Program-made: the position numbers and the translations under genes
Part shown: one piece after another, positions 1 to 12,633 of the stretch
How positions within the stretch are numbered: the stretch's first letter is position 1
How the letters are laid out: each line of letters starts with the position of its first letter
The notes under the pieces: model-generated
What the model was told of the DNA's origin: nothing
Databases searched by the model: none
What the model saw: the letters and a program-made list of their open reading frames with translations, nothing else
IMG/VR virus record: IMGVR_UViG_3300027734_003122
Span: 1 to 55,194 of that record
Reading direction: 5' to 3' (one strand)
Length of the DNA: 55,194 nt
From: a virus

Positions 1-462
1 ATCAATTGTTCTACCAATTGTTGGTAAACTATTAATGGTAGATGAGTTAAATTGTGTTGCAGCACCTGTTCTATTGGAAGAAAAGATGTCACTCTTGTTT
101 GCACTAATTGTAACTTCAGTTAAACCGTACTCAACTACATCAAGTGAGTAATTTAAGTTTGCAGTTGTCCCTAAGTTCAATATAATGTTTGATTGGGTTT
201 TTGTGGCATAACCAACATAACTAACTGTAACTCTATAAGGACCACCAATACGCATGCCTGAAATTCTATAAGAGCCATCAACATCTGTGGATGTGCCATA
301 ACTTGTTCCAGATGGTAGATGAACTGCTTCAATGGTTGCACCAATAAGCACCTCATTGCTTGCATCTTTGATTGTTCCTGATATGGCAGAAGTTGTTACT
401 TGACCATAACCAATTGTTAACGTTGCTAATGACAACAACAACGTTTTAAAAATGTTTTTCAT
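1..462 (-). CDS. TonB-dependent outer-membrane receptor, N-terminal part (cut by window edge)
   Basis: The reading frame is open from an ATG at 462 down to base 1 (154 codons) and continues outside the window. Residues 1-21 look like a signal peptide: MKN, a hydrophobic Leu-rich core, then a cleavage region near GYGQ. Residues about 25-110 read as a carboxypeptidase-regulatory-like beta-sandwich domain (SGTIKD, then DVDGSYRISG and VSYVGYAT), which precedes the plug in many Bacteroidota receptors. The last residues (ANKSDIFSSNRTGAAT, then SLPTIGRTIDD) match the start of a TonB plug. Such proteins sit in the outer membrane and import siderophores, glycans or peptides using TonB energy. The gene diverges from the phage genes that start at 591. 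It lacks a close TATTTATA box; the nearest similar sequence is about 35 bases upstream. It could be a captured host gene, a true host flank or an assembly junction. Family call is strong; its status as a phage gene is open. Confidence 0.85.
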   Translation of the reverse strand, partial: MKNIFKTLLLSLATLTIGYGQVTTSAISGTIKDASNEVLIGATIEAVHLPSGTSYGTSTDVDGSYRISGMRIGGPYRVTVSYVGYATKTQSNIILNLGTTANLNYSLDVVEYGLTEVTISANKSDIFSSNRTGAATQFNSSTINSLPTIGRTID

Positions 463-570
463 AGTAAAATTGTTTTGTTTAAAAATTTTAATTTATCATA
501 AATAAGACTTTACAAGTATAGCCAAACAAAATATTTTAGGCAAGTTTTTTTTGAATTTATATTTTTCATA

Positions 571-590: not shown

Positions 591-965
591 ATGAAATTCT
601 ATATAAAGAAAGGTGCAGATTTACCTATATTAAAAGTTGAACCAATTAAGGATGGTAGGTCAGATTACAAAAAATTTATGGAGGATTTGGAGTCATCTAC
701 CATATTATTTTCTATGATTAACACAGAAAATAATTCATATAAAATCACAAATAGTGAAGCATATTTAGTTGCCAAAGAAACAACAGAACCAACCCCAACT
801 GTGGAATACTACATATATTATCAATTTAAGAAAAGAGAAACAAATACACCTGGCATATATAAAGGTGAATTCTTGATTAGGAATGAAAATGGAGACCTCA
901 TCTTGCCTTTAAGGGAAGAATTAACTATTATTATTTTAGATTCGTTTATTAAGAAGTTTAATTAA
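591..965 (+). CDS. Putative virion protein with BppU-N-like beta domain
   Basis: A 124-residue protein with no signal peptide or membrane segment. The central part (VEYYIYYQFKKRETNTPGIY, then KGEFLIRNENGDLILPLRE) has the pattern of small beta-sandwich domains in phage baseplate or fibre proteins: a Tyr-rich strand, 'T..G.Y.GEF' and an 'NGD' turn followed by 'LP.RE'. I infer a structural role from this pattern and from the late-type box upstream. It is followed 33 bases later by DNA polymerase, so it may be co-transcribed with it. The similarity to BppU-N is a fold-level impression, not a verified match. Confidence 0.55.
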   Translation: MKFYIKKGADLPILKVEPIKDGRSDYKKFMEDLESSTILFSMINTENNSYKITNSEAYLVAKETTEPTPTVEYYIYYQFKKRETNTPGIYKGEFLIRNENGDLILPLREELTIIILDSFIKKFN

Positions 966-998: not shown

Positions 999-3677
999 AT
1001 GATAAGTAGTCAAGAAATTGAGGAGTTTCTTAATGGTTCTGATCCAGAAGAGTACATTGTTGCTATTGAATATGACTTTATGTCTAATTGTGTCTATAAG
1101 ATAAAAGAAATTCCCAATAAAGGAAAACAAATTGTCAAAGATACTTTTACCGCATTTTGTTGGGTGGGTAATTTAAATTCATTAAATTTCTACAATAAGT
1201 CAAAGGCTTTGCAAAAGGAAGCAATGACCAAACATAGCATTATTATAACAAAATTAAGAACAGATGAACATCCAAGATTGGAACATGGAATGAAATTTAT
1301 GGTTCAGTCATTAAAGGGTTATAGAAATTTAGCTGCTTTCTTTAAGGAAGGGGGGTTAGACCCAAAGAGTGAAATTGGTAGAACCAAAATTATTATGCTA
1401 CCCCCAGTTGACCAATATCTCATATCTAAAGGTAAAAGATTATTTAAAGGGTTTGATTCTTATGATGATATAACAAGACTTGTATTTGACTTAGAAACCA
1501 CAGCATTAGAACCAACTGATGGTAGAATATTTATGATTGGAATTAAAACCAATAAAGGTTACTCCAGAATCATAGAGTGTATTAACCCAGAGGATGAGGC
1601 AAATGGTATTATTGAATTTTTTAAAGTTATTGATGAAATTAAACCAACCATTATTTCAGGTTACAATTCAGCAACGTTTGACTGGGAATGGATTTTCAAA
1701 AGATGTGAAATATTAAAGATACATGTTCAAACTGCGTGTAAGTCATTAAACCCAACAAAATCCTTCACAAGAAGGGATTCTATGCTAAAATTAGGGGGTG
1801 ATGTTGAGAAATACATGCAGACCTCTATTTGGGGATATAATGTTATTGACGTAATACATTCCGTAAGAAGGGCACAAGCAATCAATAGTGACATCAAATC
1901 TGCTGGTCTTAAATATATCACAAAATATATAAATGCAGAAGATGCTGATCGTGTGTATATTGAACACACCAAGATTGGTAAAATGTATCAAGAGAAAGAA
2001 GAATATTTTCTTAATATAAATAATGGAAAATATAAATTAGCAACAGATTATCCTGACCTTGACATCAAATTTCCAAAAGTATATAAGCGAGTCACAGGTG
2101 ATAAACTTGTTGAAGCATATCTTGATGATGACTTGGAAGAAACAATGAGAGTTGATTCAGAATTTAGTCAAGCATCTTTCTTATTGGCAAAGATGGTACC
2201 ATTACCTTTTGAAAGGATATACACAATGGGAACAGCAGGATTATGGAAGACATTGATGTTGGCTTGGTCATATAATAATCAGTTGGCTGTCCCCCAAAGT
2301 GAGGATAAAAGAAACTTTGTTGGCGGTTTATCCAGATTGGTTAAGGTGGGGTATTCAAAGAATATCTATAAACTTGACTTTTCGTCCCTATATCCATCCA
2401 TACAATTGGCTCATGATGTATTCCCATCTTGTGACATAACTGGCGTTTTAGAAGGTATGTTAAAGTTTTTTAGAAATGCAAGGATAGATTATAAGAATTT
2501 GGCAGAAGAATGGAAGGATAAGGATCCTAAGATTGCTGCAACTTATGATAACAAGCAATTACCAATTAAAATTTTCATAAACTCTTTGTTTGGTTCATTA
2601 TCAGCACCAGCAGTTTTCCCTTGGGCTGAAATGGATAAAGGTGAACAGATAACTTGCACGGGTAGATTATATTTAAGGCATATGATTAAATTCTTTATGG
2701 ATAGAGGTTATGTTCCTTTAGTTTGTGATACAGATGGTGTTAACTTTTCAGCAACAGATGATTTTAGCGGTAGGGAATATATTGGAAAAGGATTAAACTG
2801 GAAAGTTAAAGAAGGTAAGATTTATAAAGGTATATATGCTGATGTTGCAGAATACAATGATTTATATATGAAAAAGGAGATGGCCTTAGATTTGGATGGT
2901 CATTGGTTATCTTGTGTTAACTTTGCAAGAAAAAACTATGCAATTATGAAAAATGATGGTAAAATAAAGTTGACAGGAAATACAATAAAATCAAAGAAAC
3001 TTCCCCAATACATTGAAAGATTTATTGATGTTGCTGTTAAGTTATTGCTTGAAGGTAAAGGAAAAGAATTTATTGAAGAATATTATAATTATTTTGAAAA
3101 GGTTTATAATAAGGAAATTCCCTTAATTGAAATCGCAAACAAGGCAAGGGTTAGACAGAATGTTAAAGACTACGTAAAAAGGTCAAAGACATTAAATAAA
3201 GCAGGAAGTACCACAAGTAAGATGGCACACATGGAGTTAATTATAAAGGAAAAATTACATGTTAATCTTGGGGATATTATATATTATGTAAATAATGGAA
3301 CAAAACAATCGCACGGGGATGTGTCAAAAACAAAAGATGGTATTAAATTAAATTGCTATTACATTGACCAAAATGTGTTCGAAAAGACCCCTGATTTGAC
3401 TGGGGAATATAATGTGCCAAGAGCAGTTGTAACTTTTAACAAAAGGATAAGCCCATTGTTGGTTGCTTTTAGTCCAGAGATTAGGAATAGGATTCTTATA
3501 AAAGACCCAGCTGATAGGCAATTCTTCACAACAGAAGAATGTAAATTAATAAATGGTATTCCTTATGCGGCAAAGGATCAAGATGATTTAAATGATGTAA
3601 TGACAATATCAGAAGATGAGGTTAAATTCTGGGAAAAAATAAATGTAAACCCCAATCTAATATATGAAAATTCTTAA
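999..3677 (+). CDS. DNA polymerase, family B (T4 gp43-like)
   Basis: This 892-residue enzyme replicates the phage genome and proofreads. The 3'-5' exonuclease domain shows Exo I at about 162-168 (VFDLETT, catalytic D164 and E166) and Exo II at about 220-228 (SGYNSATFD). The polymerase domain shows motif A at about 458-467 (KLDFSSLYPS, metal-binding D460), motif B at about 524-532 (KIFINSLFG) and motif C at about 576-580 (CDTDG, D577 and D579). All catalytic residues are present and the length matches T4 gp43 (898). No intein or insertion is visible. It lies 33 bases after the 591 gene and ends just before a strong terminator at 3681. It is separated from the other replication genes, which start near 34 kb. 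Confidence 0.97.
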   Translation: MISSQEIEEFLNGSDPEEYIVAIEYDFMSNCVYKIKEIPNKGKQIVKDTFTAFCWVGNLNSLNFYNKSKALQKEAMTKHSIIITKLRTDEHPRLEHGMKFMVQSLKGYRNLAAFFKEGGLDPKSEIGRTKIIMLPPVDQYLISKGKRLFKGFDSYDDITRLVFDLETTALEPTDGRIFMIGIKTNKGYSRIIECINPEDEANGIIEFFKVIDEIKPTIISGYNSATFDWEWIFKRCEILKIHVQTACKSLNPTKSFTRRDSMLKLGGDVEKYMQTSIWGYNVIDVIHSVRRAQAINSDIKSAGLKYITKYINAEDADRVYIEHTKIGKMYQEKEEYFLNINNGKYKLATDYPDLDIKFPKVYKRVTGDKLVEAYLDDDLEETMRVDSEFSQASFLLAKMVPLPFERIYTMGTAGLWKTLMLAWSYNNQLAVPQSEDKRNFVGGLSRLVKVGYSKNIYKLDFSSLYPSIQLAHDVFPSCDITGVLEGMLKFFRNARIDYKNLAEEWKDKDPKIAATYDNKQLPIKIFINSLFGSLSAPAVFPWAEMDKGEQITCTGRLYLRHMIKFFMDRGYVPLVCDTDGVNFSATDDFSGREYIGKGLNWKVKEGKIYKGIYADVAEYNDLYMKKEMALDLDGHWLSCVNFARKNYAIMKNDGKIKLTGNTIKSKKLPQYIERFIDVAVKLLLEGKGKEFIEEYYNYFEKVYNKEIPLIEIANKARVRQNVKDYVKRSKTLNKAGSTTSKMAHMELIIKEKLHVNLGDIIYYVNNGTKQSHGDVSKTKDGIKLNCYYIDQNVFEKTPDLTGEYNVPRAVVTFNKRISPLLVAFSPEIRNRILIKDPADRQFFTTEECKLINGIPYAAKDQDDLNDVMTISEDEVKFWEKINVNPNLIYENS

Positions 3678-5239: not shown

Positions 5240-5941
5240 TTATTCTTTTGGCTCATTATTATTTGCATTATCATATAATTCAAGAACAAAATCCCAATTT
5301 ATATAATTCCAGAAGTTATGTATATACTCATCTCTTTTGTTTTGGTATTTGAGATAATAGGAATGTTCCCATAAATCCAATCCCAATATTGGAAATCCAC
5401 CACCTTTAATGACATTCATAAGGGGATTATCTTGGTTTGGGGTGGTGATAATTTTTAATGTATTATTCTTTGTTGCAACAAGCCAGACCCATCCAGATCC
5501 AAAATGGCTTTTTGCCTTTTCTTCAAATTTTGTTTTAAATGAATTAATTGAGCCAAAACTTTTTATTATCTTATCTTTTAATTCTTTTGGGATATTCTTT
5601 TTGGTGGGTGATAGCATATTCCAGAATAAAGCGTGATTAAATGCCCCACCTGCATTATTTCTAATTGTTTTATTGAATTTGCTTATATTTGTTATTATCT
5701 GCTTTAAATCATAATTTGATTTATTATTTTTTAATGCTTTATTCAACTTATCAACATAACCTTTATAATGTTTGTTGTAATGAATATCCATTGTTTTCTC
5801 ATCAATAAAAGGTTTTAATGAGGCATATGAATAAGGCAGTTTTTCAATTCCAACCTTTTTCATTTCATTAATTAAAAAATTAACATTATCTTTATATATC
5901 CTTGATATTATTTCTTCTTTGATTGTTTCAAGTATTTTCAT
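5240..5941 (-). CDS. sodA: Superoxide dismutase, Mn-type (Fe/Mn family), with N-terminal extension
   Basis: A 233-residue enzyme that converts superoxide to oxygen and hydrogen peroxide. All four metal ligands are visible: H54 (MDIHYNKHY), H103 (FNHALFW), and D189 and H193 (LDLWEHSYY). The glycine four residues before H103 and the Gln in TPNQDNPLM (Q170) are the Mn-enzyme pattern; Fe enzymes carry the key Gln near the second His. The FGSGWVWL and NKRDEYIHNFWN blocks are intact, so I expect activity. Ordinary SODs begin near the LPYSYASL block; here about 33 extra residues precede it, starting MKILETIKEEIISRI. That leader resembles N-termini of other proteins in this window. The gene diverges from the LRR genes at 5974 and lies ahead of the neck-like gene. 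Confidence 0.95.
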   Translation of the reverse strand: MKILETIKEEIISRIYKDNVNFLINEMKKVGIEKLPYSYASLKPFIDEKTMDIHYNKHYKGYVDKLNKALKNNKSNYDLKQIITNISKFNKTIRNNAGGAFNHALFWNMLSPTKKNIPKELKDKIIKSFGSINSFKTKFEEKAKSHFGSGWVWLVATKNNTLKIITTPNQDNPLMNVIKGGGFPILGLDLWEHSYYLKYQNKRDEYIHNFWNYINWDFVLELYDNANNNEPKE

Positions 5942-5973: not shown

Positions 5974-6639
5974 ATGGATAATAGTACACTAAAAAACATA
6001 TTAGATTTTCTTGAAGAAAAAGAGAATAAAAATAAACCATTTGTTTGGAAATTAATGAATAATGAAACATTTACAGATGATGAATTAAACATTAAAGGTG
6101 ATTTGGATTTATTTGAAGAAAATATAACTTACATACCAGAAGGATTAAAAGTAGAGGGTGATTTGAATTTAGAAAGTTGTAAAAGATTAAAATCTTTACC
6201 AGATAATTTATATGTTGGCGGTGAGTTGAATTTGGAAGGTACAAGTATAAAACAAATCCCAAAAGGTTTATATGTTGGTGGTGATTTTAAATTAGTCGCT
6301 TTAAAAATAAAATCATTACCAAAAGACTTAAATGTTGATGGTGGTTTGGATTTGGGTTATTGTACAGACTTGACTTCACTACCTAACAATTTGAAAGTTG
6401 GTGGCTATTTAAGTCTATACAATACAAAAATAACCTCATTACCAGAAGGATTGGAAGTTGGTTGGGTTTTGTATTTAGATTACACAATGATAAACACATT
6501 ACCAAAAGGCTTACAAGTTGATGGTGATTTATCTATTACAAATAGCCCATTAGCAAAACTTTCAGATGAAACCATATTAAGTATGATAGAACCAGATGGT
6601 TATATAACAGGAGATATAATAAGAGAAGATAATGGATAA
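5974..6639 (+). CDS. Leucine-rich-repeat-like protein, copy 1
   Basis: A 221-residue protein. After a helical head (MDNSTLKNILDFLEEKEN) it is built from about eight units of 20-21 residues with the pattern 'LP..L.V.G.L.L..T.I..LP', for example LPDNLYVGGELNLEGTSIK, and ends with a short acidic tail. This is a parallel solenoid of leucine-rich-repeat type, normally a protein-binding surface. There is no signal peptide or membrane segment, so it probably acts in the host cytoplasm or on the virion. It overlaps copy 2 by 8 bases in a translationally coupled pair. Function unknown; a host-protein binder or anti-defence factor would fit but nothing shows it. Confidence 0.8.
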   Translation: MDNSTLKNILDFLEEKENKNKPFVWKLMNNETFTDDELNIKGDLDLFEENITYIPEGLKVEGDLNLESCKRLKSLPDNLYVGGELNLEGTSIKQIPKGLYVGGDFKLVALKIKSLPKDLNVDGGLDLGYCTDLTSLPNNLKVGGYLSLYNTKITSLPEGLEVGWVLYLDYTMINTLPKGLQVDGDLSITNSPLAKLSDETILSMIEPDGYITGDIIREDNG

Positions 6640-7102
6640 TACAACACTAAAAAGAATAATGGATTTCCTAAAATCAGAGGAAGATAAATTATCATTAAAA
6701 TGGATATTATTGCATGACATTGAGTCAATACCTGAAAAGTATTTTCACAAGGGAGCATTAGAGTTGTATGGTGAATTGATAACTAAATTGCCAAAAAATT
6801 TAGAAGTCACTGAACAATTAGATTTAAGTTTTTCAACAATAAAAGAATTACCAGAAAAACTTATAGTTGGTGATGATTTACTTTTGTATGATTGTAGGGA
6901 TTTAAAATCTTTACCAGATAACCTATATGTTGGGGGTGCCTTATCTATACAAAGAACTGGGATAAAAGAATTTCCTATTGGAATGGAAGTTAAAAATAGT
7001 ATTTGGTTGAAAGGCTCACCATTAGGTCGTTATACAGTAAAAGAAATAAAAGCACAATTAGAGGAAAGAAATTGCAAAGTTCATAAAAACATAATGGTTT
7101 AA
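6632..7102 (+). CDS. Leucine-rich-repeat-like protein, copy 2 (shorter paralogue)
   Basis: A 156-residue paralogue of the preceding gene. The head MDNTTLKRIMDFLKSEED aligns with that of copy 1. The repeat LKSLPDNLYVGG is identical in both at protein level, with close DNA similarity (around 6191 and 6905). It has about four to five repeat units against about eight in copy 1 and a different, basic C-terminal tail (KAQLEERNCKVHKNIMV). The pair is most simply explained by tandem duplication followed by loss or gain of repeat units. The gene starts inside the end of copy 1. No terminator is evident before the convergent small gene at 7109. Confidence 0.8.
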   Translation: MDNTTLKRIMDFLKSEEDKLSLKWILLHDIESIPEKYFHKGALELYGELITKLPKNLEVTEQLDLSFSTIKELPEKLIVGDDLLLYDCRDLKSLPDNLYVGGALSIQRTGIKEFPIGMEVKNSIWLKGSPLGRYTVKEIKAQLEERNCKVHKNIMV

Positions 7103-9934: not shown

Positions 9935-10753
9935 ATGCCATTACCAAAAAAAATAAAAAATACTCTGGATATTGTCTATGACAAAACTCTACTAGAAAGA
10001 AGACAAGAGTTATTAGAGAATATTACTGATGATGGTACATTTTTACCAAAATCTTTATTACATGAGGATTTAGATAAAGGTATGCTTAATTTTGTAAAGA
10101 ATGATTTACAAATAATATCTGATGGCAAATTAATTCCTACATTAGATAAAATTATTAGTACACAAAATTGGTCACAATATACAGAAACTTGGACATTTAT
10201 TGATGATGATAATAATGCATTACCACCTTTTTGTACATTAATTAGAACTAATGACCAAAAATACGGAACTAATCCAGCAACACAATATACTATTCCAAAT
10301 AGAAAACCATTTTATTTTGCAAGCGTTCCAACATGGGATGGACAAAGAAATGGTTACGATATATACTCGATACCACAACCCGTTCCAATTGATATAAATT
10401 ATAGTTTTAAACTAATAACAAATAGAATAAGAGATTTAAATTTATTAAACAAAAAAGTATTACAAAAATTTTCATCATTACAAGCATACACCATAGTAAA
10501 CGGACATTATATACCAATCATATCAACCAATATATCAGATGAATCACAAATTAACACTGATAGTAGAAAATTTTATATCCAATCTTACGATTTTACTATG
10601 CTTGGATTTTTAATTGATGAAGAAGAATTTGAGGTAAAACCAGCAATAAATAGAATTAGTCAAGTTTTTGAAACAGAATTGAATAATTCAGTACCAAATG
10701 TGCAAATAACTGAAACAATTCCAATAAATGATTTAAATTATGAAATATTATAA
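9935..10753 (+). CDS. Putative tail-completion / structural protein
   Basis: A 272-residue protein starting MPLPKKIKNTLDIVYDKT. A longer frame back to a GTG at 9842 overlaps the zinc-ribbon gene in another frame and is unlikely. The middle region (PPFCTLIRTNDQKYGTNPAT, then FYFASVPTWDGQRNGYDIY) and the 'QPVPIDINYSFKLITNRIRD' strand-helix segment recall tail-completion or sheath-terminator proteins of T4 gp15 type, in which a beta-rich core carries 'Y.f...T.......N..v.q.F'. The C-terminus contains LGFLIDEEEFEVKPAINR. The assignment is tentative. Its stop overlaps the start of the adhesin gene by one base. Confidence 0.55.
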   Translation: MPLPKKIKNTLDIVYDKTLLERRQELLENITDDGTFLPKSLLHEDLDKGMLNFVKNDLQIISDGKLIPTLDKIISTQNWSQYTETWTFIDDDNNALPPFCTLIRTNDQKYGTNPATQYTIPNRKPFYFASVPTWDGQRNGYDIYSIPQPVPIDINYSFKLITNRIRDLNLLNKKVLQKFSSLQAYTIVNGHYIPIISTNISDESQINTDSRKFYIQSYDFTMLGFLIDEEEFEVKPAINRISQVFETELNNSVPNVQITETIPINDLNYEIL

Positions 10754-12633
10754 TGAGTTGTGGTATAAAAATATTAAGTAATAATCTATTGAATGAGACT
10801 GTTTTCGTTTCAGTTAACCAAGGTGGTAATGTATTTAACTTGGGGGAAAAGATAATCCCTTTCAATATATATGCTATTGAAGGCACTAACGCCATTAGTG
10901 GTACATATAATGTATACTCACCTACTTATAAAAAAAATTATGAAATAATTGTACCAAATTTATTCAACATTGTACCTTGTGTGTCCCCAACCCCAACTAT
11001 AACCCCAACACGAACTATAACCCCAACTTTAACCCCAACTTTAACACCAACTATCACTTCAACTATATCTATGACACCAACTATCACTCCAACTATATCT
11101 ATAACACCAACAAAAACAATGACACCAACTGTAACAATAACACCAACAAGTCCATTATTATGTAATACATTAATTGATTATAACGGATCTGAAGTTTATC
11201 CGTACATATCATATATAAATATTGGATATACTATTAACACAATAGCATCATTTGAGTATAGTGCATATACAATTGCTGATAGGTTTATTCTATATTATGC
11301 TAATAATTTATTACTTGATACTGGATATATAGGTTCATTTGTTTATGATTATGGGCAAATGTATAGAGAAAACTTTACAGAACATTTAATGGGCAAAATT
11401 GATCCTTTAACTAGTTTAGAATACCCAAATATAAATGTTACAAATTCTGCTCCAGATGGCTATCCATTTGTTAATTCAACAAACGAAGGATTGTTTAGTT
11501 TTGTAAAAACATCTACAAGTCAAATTGCTAAAGTTGAAGTTTATTCTTGTGCTCCTTTAAATATATGGACATTTAAATTAAATTGTCCAATAGAACCATC
11601 AGTAACCCCAACAATAACACCGACAATAAGCGTAACACCACCAATATCAATAACACCAACAATAAGTGTAACGCCAACCATATCAGTAACACCAACTATA
11701 TCAATAACTCCAACCAATACTATAACACCTACAATAACACCGACAATAAGCGTAACCCCACCCATATCAATAACACCAACAATAAGTGTAACGCCAACCA
11801 TATCAGTAACTCCAACCAATACTATAACACCTACAATAACACCAACAATATCAATAACGCCAACAATATCAGTAACTCCGACCAACACTATAACACCTAC
11901 CTTATCAATAACACCAACAATAAGTATAACACCTAGTATTACACCAACAAAAACAATAACACCTAGTATAACTCCATCAACATCAATGTTTGTACCTACT
12001 TTAGTATATGACTTAGATGCTATAAATTACTCATCAGTACCAACTAATGGAACTACGGTTGATGGATATCCATTAAGCGTATCAAACAATGGTAATAGCA
12101 TTAGTTGGCAATCAACTAATAGTGGGTTATTTAGAAAATCTAACAATGTGGGTACTGATTTTATTTATGGTGGACCAAATTATGTTTCTAGCCAGAGTTA
12201 TAGTGTATTTATGGTATATAAACTATCAGCAACCTCATCAGGTAGATTATTAAACACACAAAATGAGGGGGTTAAAGATTGGATGATGGGGGCATATAAT
12301 GGTCGTGCAAATGCTTTTTATCCTAACTTTACTGTTAATCTAAGTAGCGGACCAATTGATACTATATGGCATATGGATTGGGCTACTTGGGATACTGTGT
12401 CAAGTGTGGGTAGATTATATACCGCAACACCATCATCAGCAGCACCTACCACTCATACATATACCGCAACTAGTGGTAGTGGGGGTGGATTTAATCAACT
12501 AAGATTATTTAGCCGTTTTGCTGCAACTGAAGTTCAAACGGGGGATATTGCATTCATTAAGGTATATAATGGAGTATTAAGTTTAGCAACTATTCAATCA
12601 CTACACGCTAGTTATTCAACTAGATTCCAATAA
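10753..12633 (+). CDS. Tail fibre/adhesin with Thr-Pro repeats and a LamG-like C-terminal domain
   Basis: A 626-residue multidomain protein. Residues 1-75 form a small beta domain. Residues about 77-135 and 282-411 are low-complexity Thr/Pro/Ile/Ser stretches (units such as ITPTISVTPT). Between them (about 136-280) is a beta-rich globular domain containing ADRFILYYANNLLLDTGYI and a PDGYPFVNST motif. Residues about 415-626 resemble a concanavalin-A/LamG-like domain (VYDLDAINYSS, then YSVFMVYKLSATSSGRLLNT), a common carbohydrate-binding fold. The Thr/Pro stretches are probably extended, protease-resistant linkers or stalks. I infer a host-surface binding role. The gene is translationally coupled to the one before it (TAATG). 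Confidence 0.75.
   Translation: MSCGIKILSNNLLNETVFVSVNQGGNVFNLGEKIIPFNIYAIEGTNAISGTYNVYSPTYKKNYEIIVPNLFNIVPCVSPTPTITPTRTITPTLTPTLTPTITSTISMTPTITPTISITPTKTMTPTVTITPTSPLLCNTLIDYNGSEVYPYISYINIGYTINTIASFEYSAYTIADRFILYYANNLLLDTGYIGSFVYDYGQMYRENFTEHLMGKIDPLTSLEYPNINVTNSAPDGYPFVNSTNEGLFSFVKTSTSQIAKVEVYSCAPLNIWTFKLNCPIEPSVTPTITPTISVTPPISITPTISVTPTISVTPTISITPTNTITPTITPTISVTPPISITPTISVTPTISVTPTNTITPTITPTISITPTISVTPTNTITPTLSITPTISITPSITPTKTITPSITPSTSMFVPTLVYDLDAINYSSVPTNGTTVDGYPLSVSNNGNSISWQSTNSGLFRKSNNVGTDFIYGGPNYVSSQSYSVFMVYKLSATSSGRLLNTQNEGVKDWMMGAYNGRANAFYPNFTVNLSSGPIDTIWHMDWATWDTVSSVGRLYTATPSSAAPTTHTYTATSGSGGGFNQLRLFSRFAATEVQTGDIAFIKVYNGVLSLATIQSLHASYSTRFQ
11596..11985 (+). repeat. Coding tandem repeat, Thr-Pro-Ile/Val units
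   Basis: The stretch repeats short units such as ATAACACCAACAATA. A stretch of about 90 bases beginning at 11611 recurs at 11731, exactly 120 bases later, with only a few third-position changes, so a segmental duplication built part of the array. A shorter, more diverged array encodes the first Thr/Pro stretch at about 10981-11155. Confidence 0.85.

Follow-up and report, generated by a model that had tools for sequence, protein, structure and literature searches.

Gene content of the locus

The window, a whole viral record of 55,194 bases, begins inside a gene predicted to encode an Oar-class TonB-dependent transporter (positions 1-462, minus strand). The contig end cuts the gene 154 codons from its ATG at 462, leaving the 5' 14% of a frame that has 1107-1114 codons in complete relatives. 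The fragment starts with a putative signal peptide (403-462, residues 1-20, MKNIFKTLLLSLATLTIGYG/Q, read by eye from the sequence), followed by an N-terminal extension with a carboxypeptidase-regulatory-like domain (133-402, about residues 21-110; PF13620 at residues 27-107). Two Pfam families, CarboxypepD_reg (E 1.7e-21) and CarbopepD_reg_2 (E 7.5e-12), score over their cut-offs in the fragment, and the extension forms beta strands in the model of the relative L002. A candidate TonB box, LTEVTI (106-123, residues 114-119), is suggested by its position and by the L-x-E-V-x-I pattern common to bacterial homologues. It is loosely conserved, since the related locus L005 has LQGVTI, and the linker has a dN/dS of 0.27. 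The last ten residues (145-154, positions 1-30) correspond in alignments to the first part of the plug domain of full-length homologues. The original prediction had placed a host-type TonB-dependent receptor beside phage genes in a T4-like genome, with a signal peptide, a carboxypeptidase-regulatory-like domain and the start of a plug; the open frame, the Pfam domains, the alignment and the phage genes around it agree with that reading.

On the other side of the junction lies a divergent, conserved phage gene of 124 amino acids (591-965, plus strand) that marks the insertion site. The transporter-less relative L067 has it too, as do the distant relatives L073 and L074, there at 40% identity. 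The next gene, a phage family-B DNA polymerase (polB; 999-3677, plus strand; phrog_262 E 4.9e-54, PF00136 E 5.7e-14), serves as a syntenic anchor. The other neighbors in the window are also phage genes, encoding a tail sheath, a UvsX-like recombinase, helicases and ribonucleotide reductase.

A host-type promoter-like site, TTG-N20-TATACTTG, lies about 50 nt upstream of the transporter ATG (513-543, minus strand) and resembles the Bacteroidota housekeeping promoter. Between phages, the 127 bases upstream of the gene keep 88-95% identity, even though divergence at synonymous sites reaches 49-50%. In a 270-kb relative, sites of the form TTTG-N-TAnnTTTG number 46, and 26 of them fall in intergenic DNA, which makes up 69.5 kb of strand compared with 470 kb that is coding; the class is thus about nine times as dense between genes as within them. 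A host-type promoter suggests transcription by the host polymerase, and hence presumably early expression. Strong terminator-like hairpins follow the stop codon in L002 and L005. The late-promoter motif TATAAATA is too unspecific in this genome for assignment, and the phage and bacterial upstream regions have no convincing similarity that would indicate that the gene was copied along with a bacterial promoter.

Elsewhere in the window, an iron/manganese superoxide dismutase gene (5240-5941, minus strand; Sod_Fe_C E 1.7e-39) adjoins a head-tail adaptor-like gene. Multiplied genes with short leucine-rich repeats (SLPEGLKVGGDL-like; 5974-7102) form arrays at several sites, with many copies in L002, L005 and L067 and across the 270-kb relative, and their copy number varies among related phages. 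A 626-aa protein (10753-12633, plus strand) has long TPTISVTPTISITPT-like repeats in six-residue steps, and is probably a virion or fiber linker.

The junction in related phages

The original prediction had asked for the junction in independent assemblies, and it recurs in eight further IMG/VR contigs from eight metagenomes, giving nine contigs with the window; all phage copies are metagenomic, and several of the metagenomes may share sites. The shared arrangement is the transporter, about 127 non-coding bases, the divergent 124-aa gene and then polB. Six loci (L002, L003, L005, L006, L007 and L009) include the stop codon, and their frames are 1107 or 1114 codons long, uninterrupted in every complete copy. 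L002 and L009 are identical sequences from separate metagenomes, and L005-L007 to all appearance likewise, so that three distinct complete sequences of this clade (clade 1) were compared. The longest record, of 270 kb, extends on both sides of the transporter, beyond which it encodes metK, glycosyltransferase-like and other genes. A chimeric contig or host contamination at 462-590 is a negligible prospect, because, although the window comes from a metagenome and breaks off within the gene, the junction is repeated in the eight other metagenomes, long records run on past the gene, and phage codon use, dN/dS of 0.07-0.11, the conserved promoter, the terminator-like hairpin and a sister phage with another gene at the site exclude it in practice.

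That sister phage, L067, has a polB 97% identical and a 202-aa gene in place of the transporter, with the flanks conserved on both sides, which marks the transporter as a cassette with a defined site of its own. The substitute gene (L067:6879-7487, minus strand) shows a weak resemblance to SAM lyase that stays below threshold (E 0.0028), and lies two genes from a phage metK. In clade 1, metK (S-adenosylmethionine synthetase; L002:11529-12668, TIGR01034 E 1.5e-129) is directly 3' of the transporter, and with a dN/dS of 0.21 it evolves faster than polB. Two glycosyltransferase-like genes lie nearby (L002:13838-16460, minus strand), one GlcNAc-type (PF11397 E 8.4e-65) and one HtrL_YibB-like; the L067 version of the second of the pair is only 49% identical.

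Across the promoter, the 124-aa gene, polB and the genes that follow, the window is 93-99% identical to the L005 type. Within the transporter this falls to 72-82%, and the window is there 84-92% identical to L002, L003 and L004. Judged from these identities, transporter alleles have been exchanged among related phages, with a breakpoint near the start codon. No isolated phage among 50,697 records carries the transporter, the only match being a 6-kb fecal virome contig at 31-33%. A second Oar barrel was not seen in the same phage records.

Protein class and predicted fold

The complete relative L002 matches PF13620 (E 2.6e-19) and the barrel family PF25183 (E 1.5e-50), both over cut-off. By this domain content the protein belongs to the Oar class, which combines a CarboxypepD_reg N-terminal extension with an Oar-type barrel. 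An AlphaFold model of L002, of moderate confidence (mean pLDDT 65.8), has 22 barrel strands as read by eye. Its matches in the PDB include PirA (Z 28.6, rmsd 4.0, 502 aligned), BtuB (26.9), Cir (26.6) and FusA (26.3), and Z is 23-29 to some 50 TonB-dependent transporter entries. The predicted fold is thus the 22-strand outer-membrane barrel of TonB-dependent transporters. Among viral predicted structures, only the SusC of an uncultured marine phage matches the model well (E 1.4e-19), and a sequence search of solved structures returned essentially matches to the N-terminal domain only.

The Pfam Plug family PF07715 has no match in the gene, a search that is uninformative because the known gene itself is unmatched, and the model is weak there (pLDDT below 50 for residues 164-241). 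The plug segment is nevertheless the most conserved region of the protein; over 100 residues it shares 92% identity with a bacterial Oar homologue. A profile search of five clade-1 phage records did not find a TonB C-terminal domain. The immediate neighbors in L002 and L005 are metK, a MauE/DoxX-like gene, the glycosyltransferase-like genes, the 124-aa gene and polB, with no SusD lipoprotein gene among them to form a SusCD pair.

Selection and residence in the phage

Between clade-1 phage copies, dN/dS of the transporter is 0.073-0.106 at dS of 0.30-0.83, comparable to that of polB (0.069 for L002/L005). By region, the same L002/L005 pair gives 0.016 for the plug, 0.091 for the strands and 0.094 for the extracellular loops, and a further comparison of loops and strands gives 0.080 and 0.076, all by a simple counting method (Nei-Gojobori) and with region boundaries read by eye from the model. 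Bacterial homologues have 364 positions with at least 95% conservation, and the phage copies keep 356-357 of these, a number within the bacterial range. Since the plug and the bacterial invariant positions are conserved, the product quite probably works as a transporter.

GC3 of the transporter is 0.17-0.19, against a phage mean of 0.215 and 0.48-0.51 in bacterial homologues, and this phage-like value indicates long residence in the phage. The transporter is almost certainly a genuine phage gene. The idea that it marks an integration boundary or host DNA does not fit a gene that is ameliorated and under purifying selection, with a junction that recurs across metagenomes. Its absence from one close relative, L067, with another gene at the site, is what might be expected of bacterial DNA acquired as neutral cargo and carried without selection. 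This explanation is very improbable: in both independent clades dN/dS stays at 0.07-0.14 although synonymous sites have diverged widely, the complete clade-1 copies have intact frames, and the promoter region is conserved.

Origin and a second phage clade

A tree built with 27 bacterial homologues places the three complete phage sequences together in a single clade (100/100), next to sequences from Saprospiraceae/Chitinophagales. Full-length bacterial homologues are 54-73% identical, and the highest bacterial identity found is 72-74%. One related locus, L018, is bacterial by its neighbors, such as a dihydropteroate synthase-like gene (names read from the sequence). The tree points to capture of the clade-1 transporter from a Bacteroidota host, with the family not firmly indicated, and it backs the original prediction of Bacteroidota as the probable host group. 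The phage sequences nest within the bacterial homologues; together with a dN/dS of 0.07-0.14 and the locus common to nine contigs, this makes the gene host-derived, phage-resident and selected, which is one mark of an auxiliary metabolic gene.

With a bacterial homologue as IMG/VR query, three further viral contigs were found at 47-48%. Searching with one of these then yielded 42 loci: 38 had identities of 72-100% and came from 34 metagenomes, and the other four lay at 37-40%. The first alignment-based IMG/VR scans missed this second clade, which the bacterial homologue was needed to find, and further phage clades with an Oar gene may still be missed. Most clade-2 contigs are fragments, and some of the records carry a tail sheath gene or polB. 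The transporter had been thought unexpected in a lytic T4-like genome, an expectation that a second phage clade with an Oar gene contradicts. In a joint tree made by a quick method, the two phage clades are separate, each beside bacterial sequences, and two changes are needed, forced by supported branches. At least two independent captures from Bacteroidota are strongly supported by this topology.

Clade 2 is also under purifying selection (median dN/dS 0.138 over 153 pairs, plug 0.042), with a GC3 of 0.217. Its transporter recurs in at least three gene contexts: behind a UvsW-like helicase, behind a gene pair for a primase and an exonuclease, and in an Fe-S/GroEL run. In the last, NifU/IscU-like, IscA-like, GroEL and 4Fe-4S ferredoxin genes surround the Oar transporter in varying sets. 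This run was observed at L132:6744-13819, with the same context in L123, L124, L129, L140, L143 and L150. These phage-borne genes may constitute an Fe-S module, and the neighborhood, which is limited to clade 2 and is not part of the window's clade, hints at iron by association. An A/C-rich leader right before the ATG (TTTTTTAACAAAAACAAAACA-like) recurs in clade 2 despite the differing neighbors.

Proposed function

The preferred reading is that the gene was captured from Bacteroidota, is a self-contained cassette, and encodes a working nutrient importer that acts through the host TonB; for this statement as a whole we estimate a probability of about 0.5. After capture, the cassette would have been kept with its own host-type promoter and terminator-like hairpin, and upon infection a host sigma factor would transcribe the gene. 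The product would be exported by Sec and folded into the outer membrane by the host BAM, and its TonB box may couple to the host TonB-ExbB-ExbD motor. The motor would be borrowed, since Ton genes were not found in the phage records searched. A substrate would then cross the outer membrane, most likely as import of a scarce nutrient during replication of a large phage, while host outer-membrane synthesis falls. The transporter would in this way sustain or widen import during infection.

The main rival to nutrient import is receptor swapping or superinfection exclusion. Here the host Oar would serve this phage or its competitors as receptor, and the phage variant would displace it or lower its share, preventing adsorption by later phages while host transport is preserved. 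The fold matches include solved structures of FhuA bound to T5 pb5 and to Llp, the T5 exclusion lipoprotein, and crAss-like tail spikes have been docked in silico to Bacteroides TonB receptors (PMC10569736). The exchange of transporter alleles between otherwise near-identical phages may also be counted in its favor. However, the allele difference is greatest in the periplasmic parts (N-terminal extension and linker), the extracellular loops evolve no faster than the strands in the three distinct clade-1 sequences, and so strongly constrained a plug is needless for a passive decoy. Selection on the plug would likewise be expected if the phage preserves the host function while swapping the surface. 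Overall, receptor swapping seems possible but rather doubtful. Nutrient uptake is preferred because the plug and barrel are constrained as in bacteria and the extracellular loops are not diversifying. Among the functions first suggested for the gene, nutrient supply appears to fit best, a block to superinfection may be possible but is less supported, and a change of the cell surface may be possible.

An export role, in which the transporter secretes a phage or host protein, is unlikely. The Oar-class architecture would allow it, as Myxococcus Oar is needed for protein export and not import (PMC6434023), which bears against the assumed import direction. The 270-kb relative also encodes an M12B reprolysin-like metalloprotease with an apparent signal peptide (L082:7447-9252, minus strand, 147447-149252 of that record; E 1.6e-12), by sequence a phage-encoded secreted protease. 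This protease is far from the transporter, no cargo gene is linked to the latter, and a weak T9SS-type tail at the end of the protease (TIGR04183 E 0.038, below cut-off) would point to another route. A small outer-membrane barrel protein with an apparent signal peptide (L083:11820-12440, plus strand; OMP_b-brl_2 E 1.9e-15) is a second outer-membrane protein of the same phage.

Beyond nutrient import by the window's gene, a broader proposal is more tentative. Oar may be a mobile, self-expressing outer-membrane cassette of T4-like Bacteroidota phages, captured at least twice and moved among sites with its leader, that rebuilds the uptake profile of the cell, and one lineage may have teamed it with Fe-S assembly genes, ferredoxin and GroEL as an iron-supply module. 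A TonB-dependent receptor is ordinarily bound by phages and not brought by them, and a phage-owned one suggests that the uptake or the surface display of the infected cell is rebuilt. Two captures, about 47 large-phage contigs and strong selection on the plug point to a benefit from controlling outer-membrane transport, or its surface, in infection. The gene can be used to test whether phages direct nutrient or iron uptake, or replace receptors, in a phylum where TonB receptors abound.

Comparison with known systems

Bacteroidota such as Saprospiraceae, Runella and Spirosoma encode Oar-like transporters on their chromosomes, which have the same domains and form the sister group in the tree. 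They differ in their bacterial context, as in L018, and in their higher GC3, and the phage copies form two separate clades. The Oar of Myxococcus xanthus, which is required for PopC secretion (PMC6434023), likewise has a signal peptide, a CarboxypepD_reg extension, a TonB box and a 22-strand barrel, but it is cellular and has a linked Ton system, whereas the phage gene has neither linked Ton genes nor a linked cargo.

T5 Llp and other phage receptor blockers are comparable as phage genes whose action would be at an outer-membrane TonB receptor. Llp is a small lipoprotein that binds FhuA and is not a transporter. For phage porins, the open-access literature text gave no useful precedent.

Marine megaphages (Mar_Mega_1, LR745206) carry a SusC-like TonB-dependent receptor, for which the authors propose raised carbohydrate uptake (PMC9723777); the passage that describes it gives no selection, synteny or promoter evidence. 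The LR745206 gene has a CarbopepD_reg_2 domain in an 883-aa frame, as we confirmed, but gives no match to an alignment of Oar sequences, and one search of IMG/VR found no relatives of it. TonB receptors in phages are therefore already known from marine megaphages, and the present gene is of another class and is carried by other phages.
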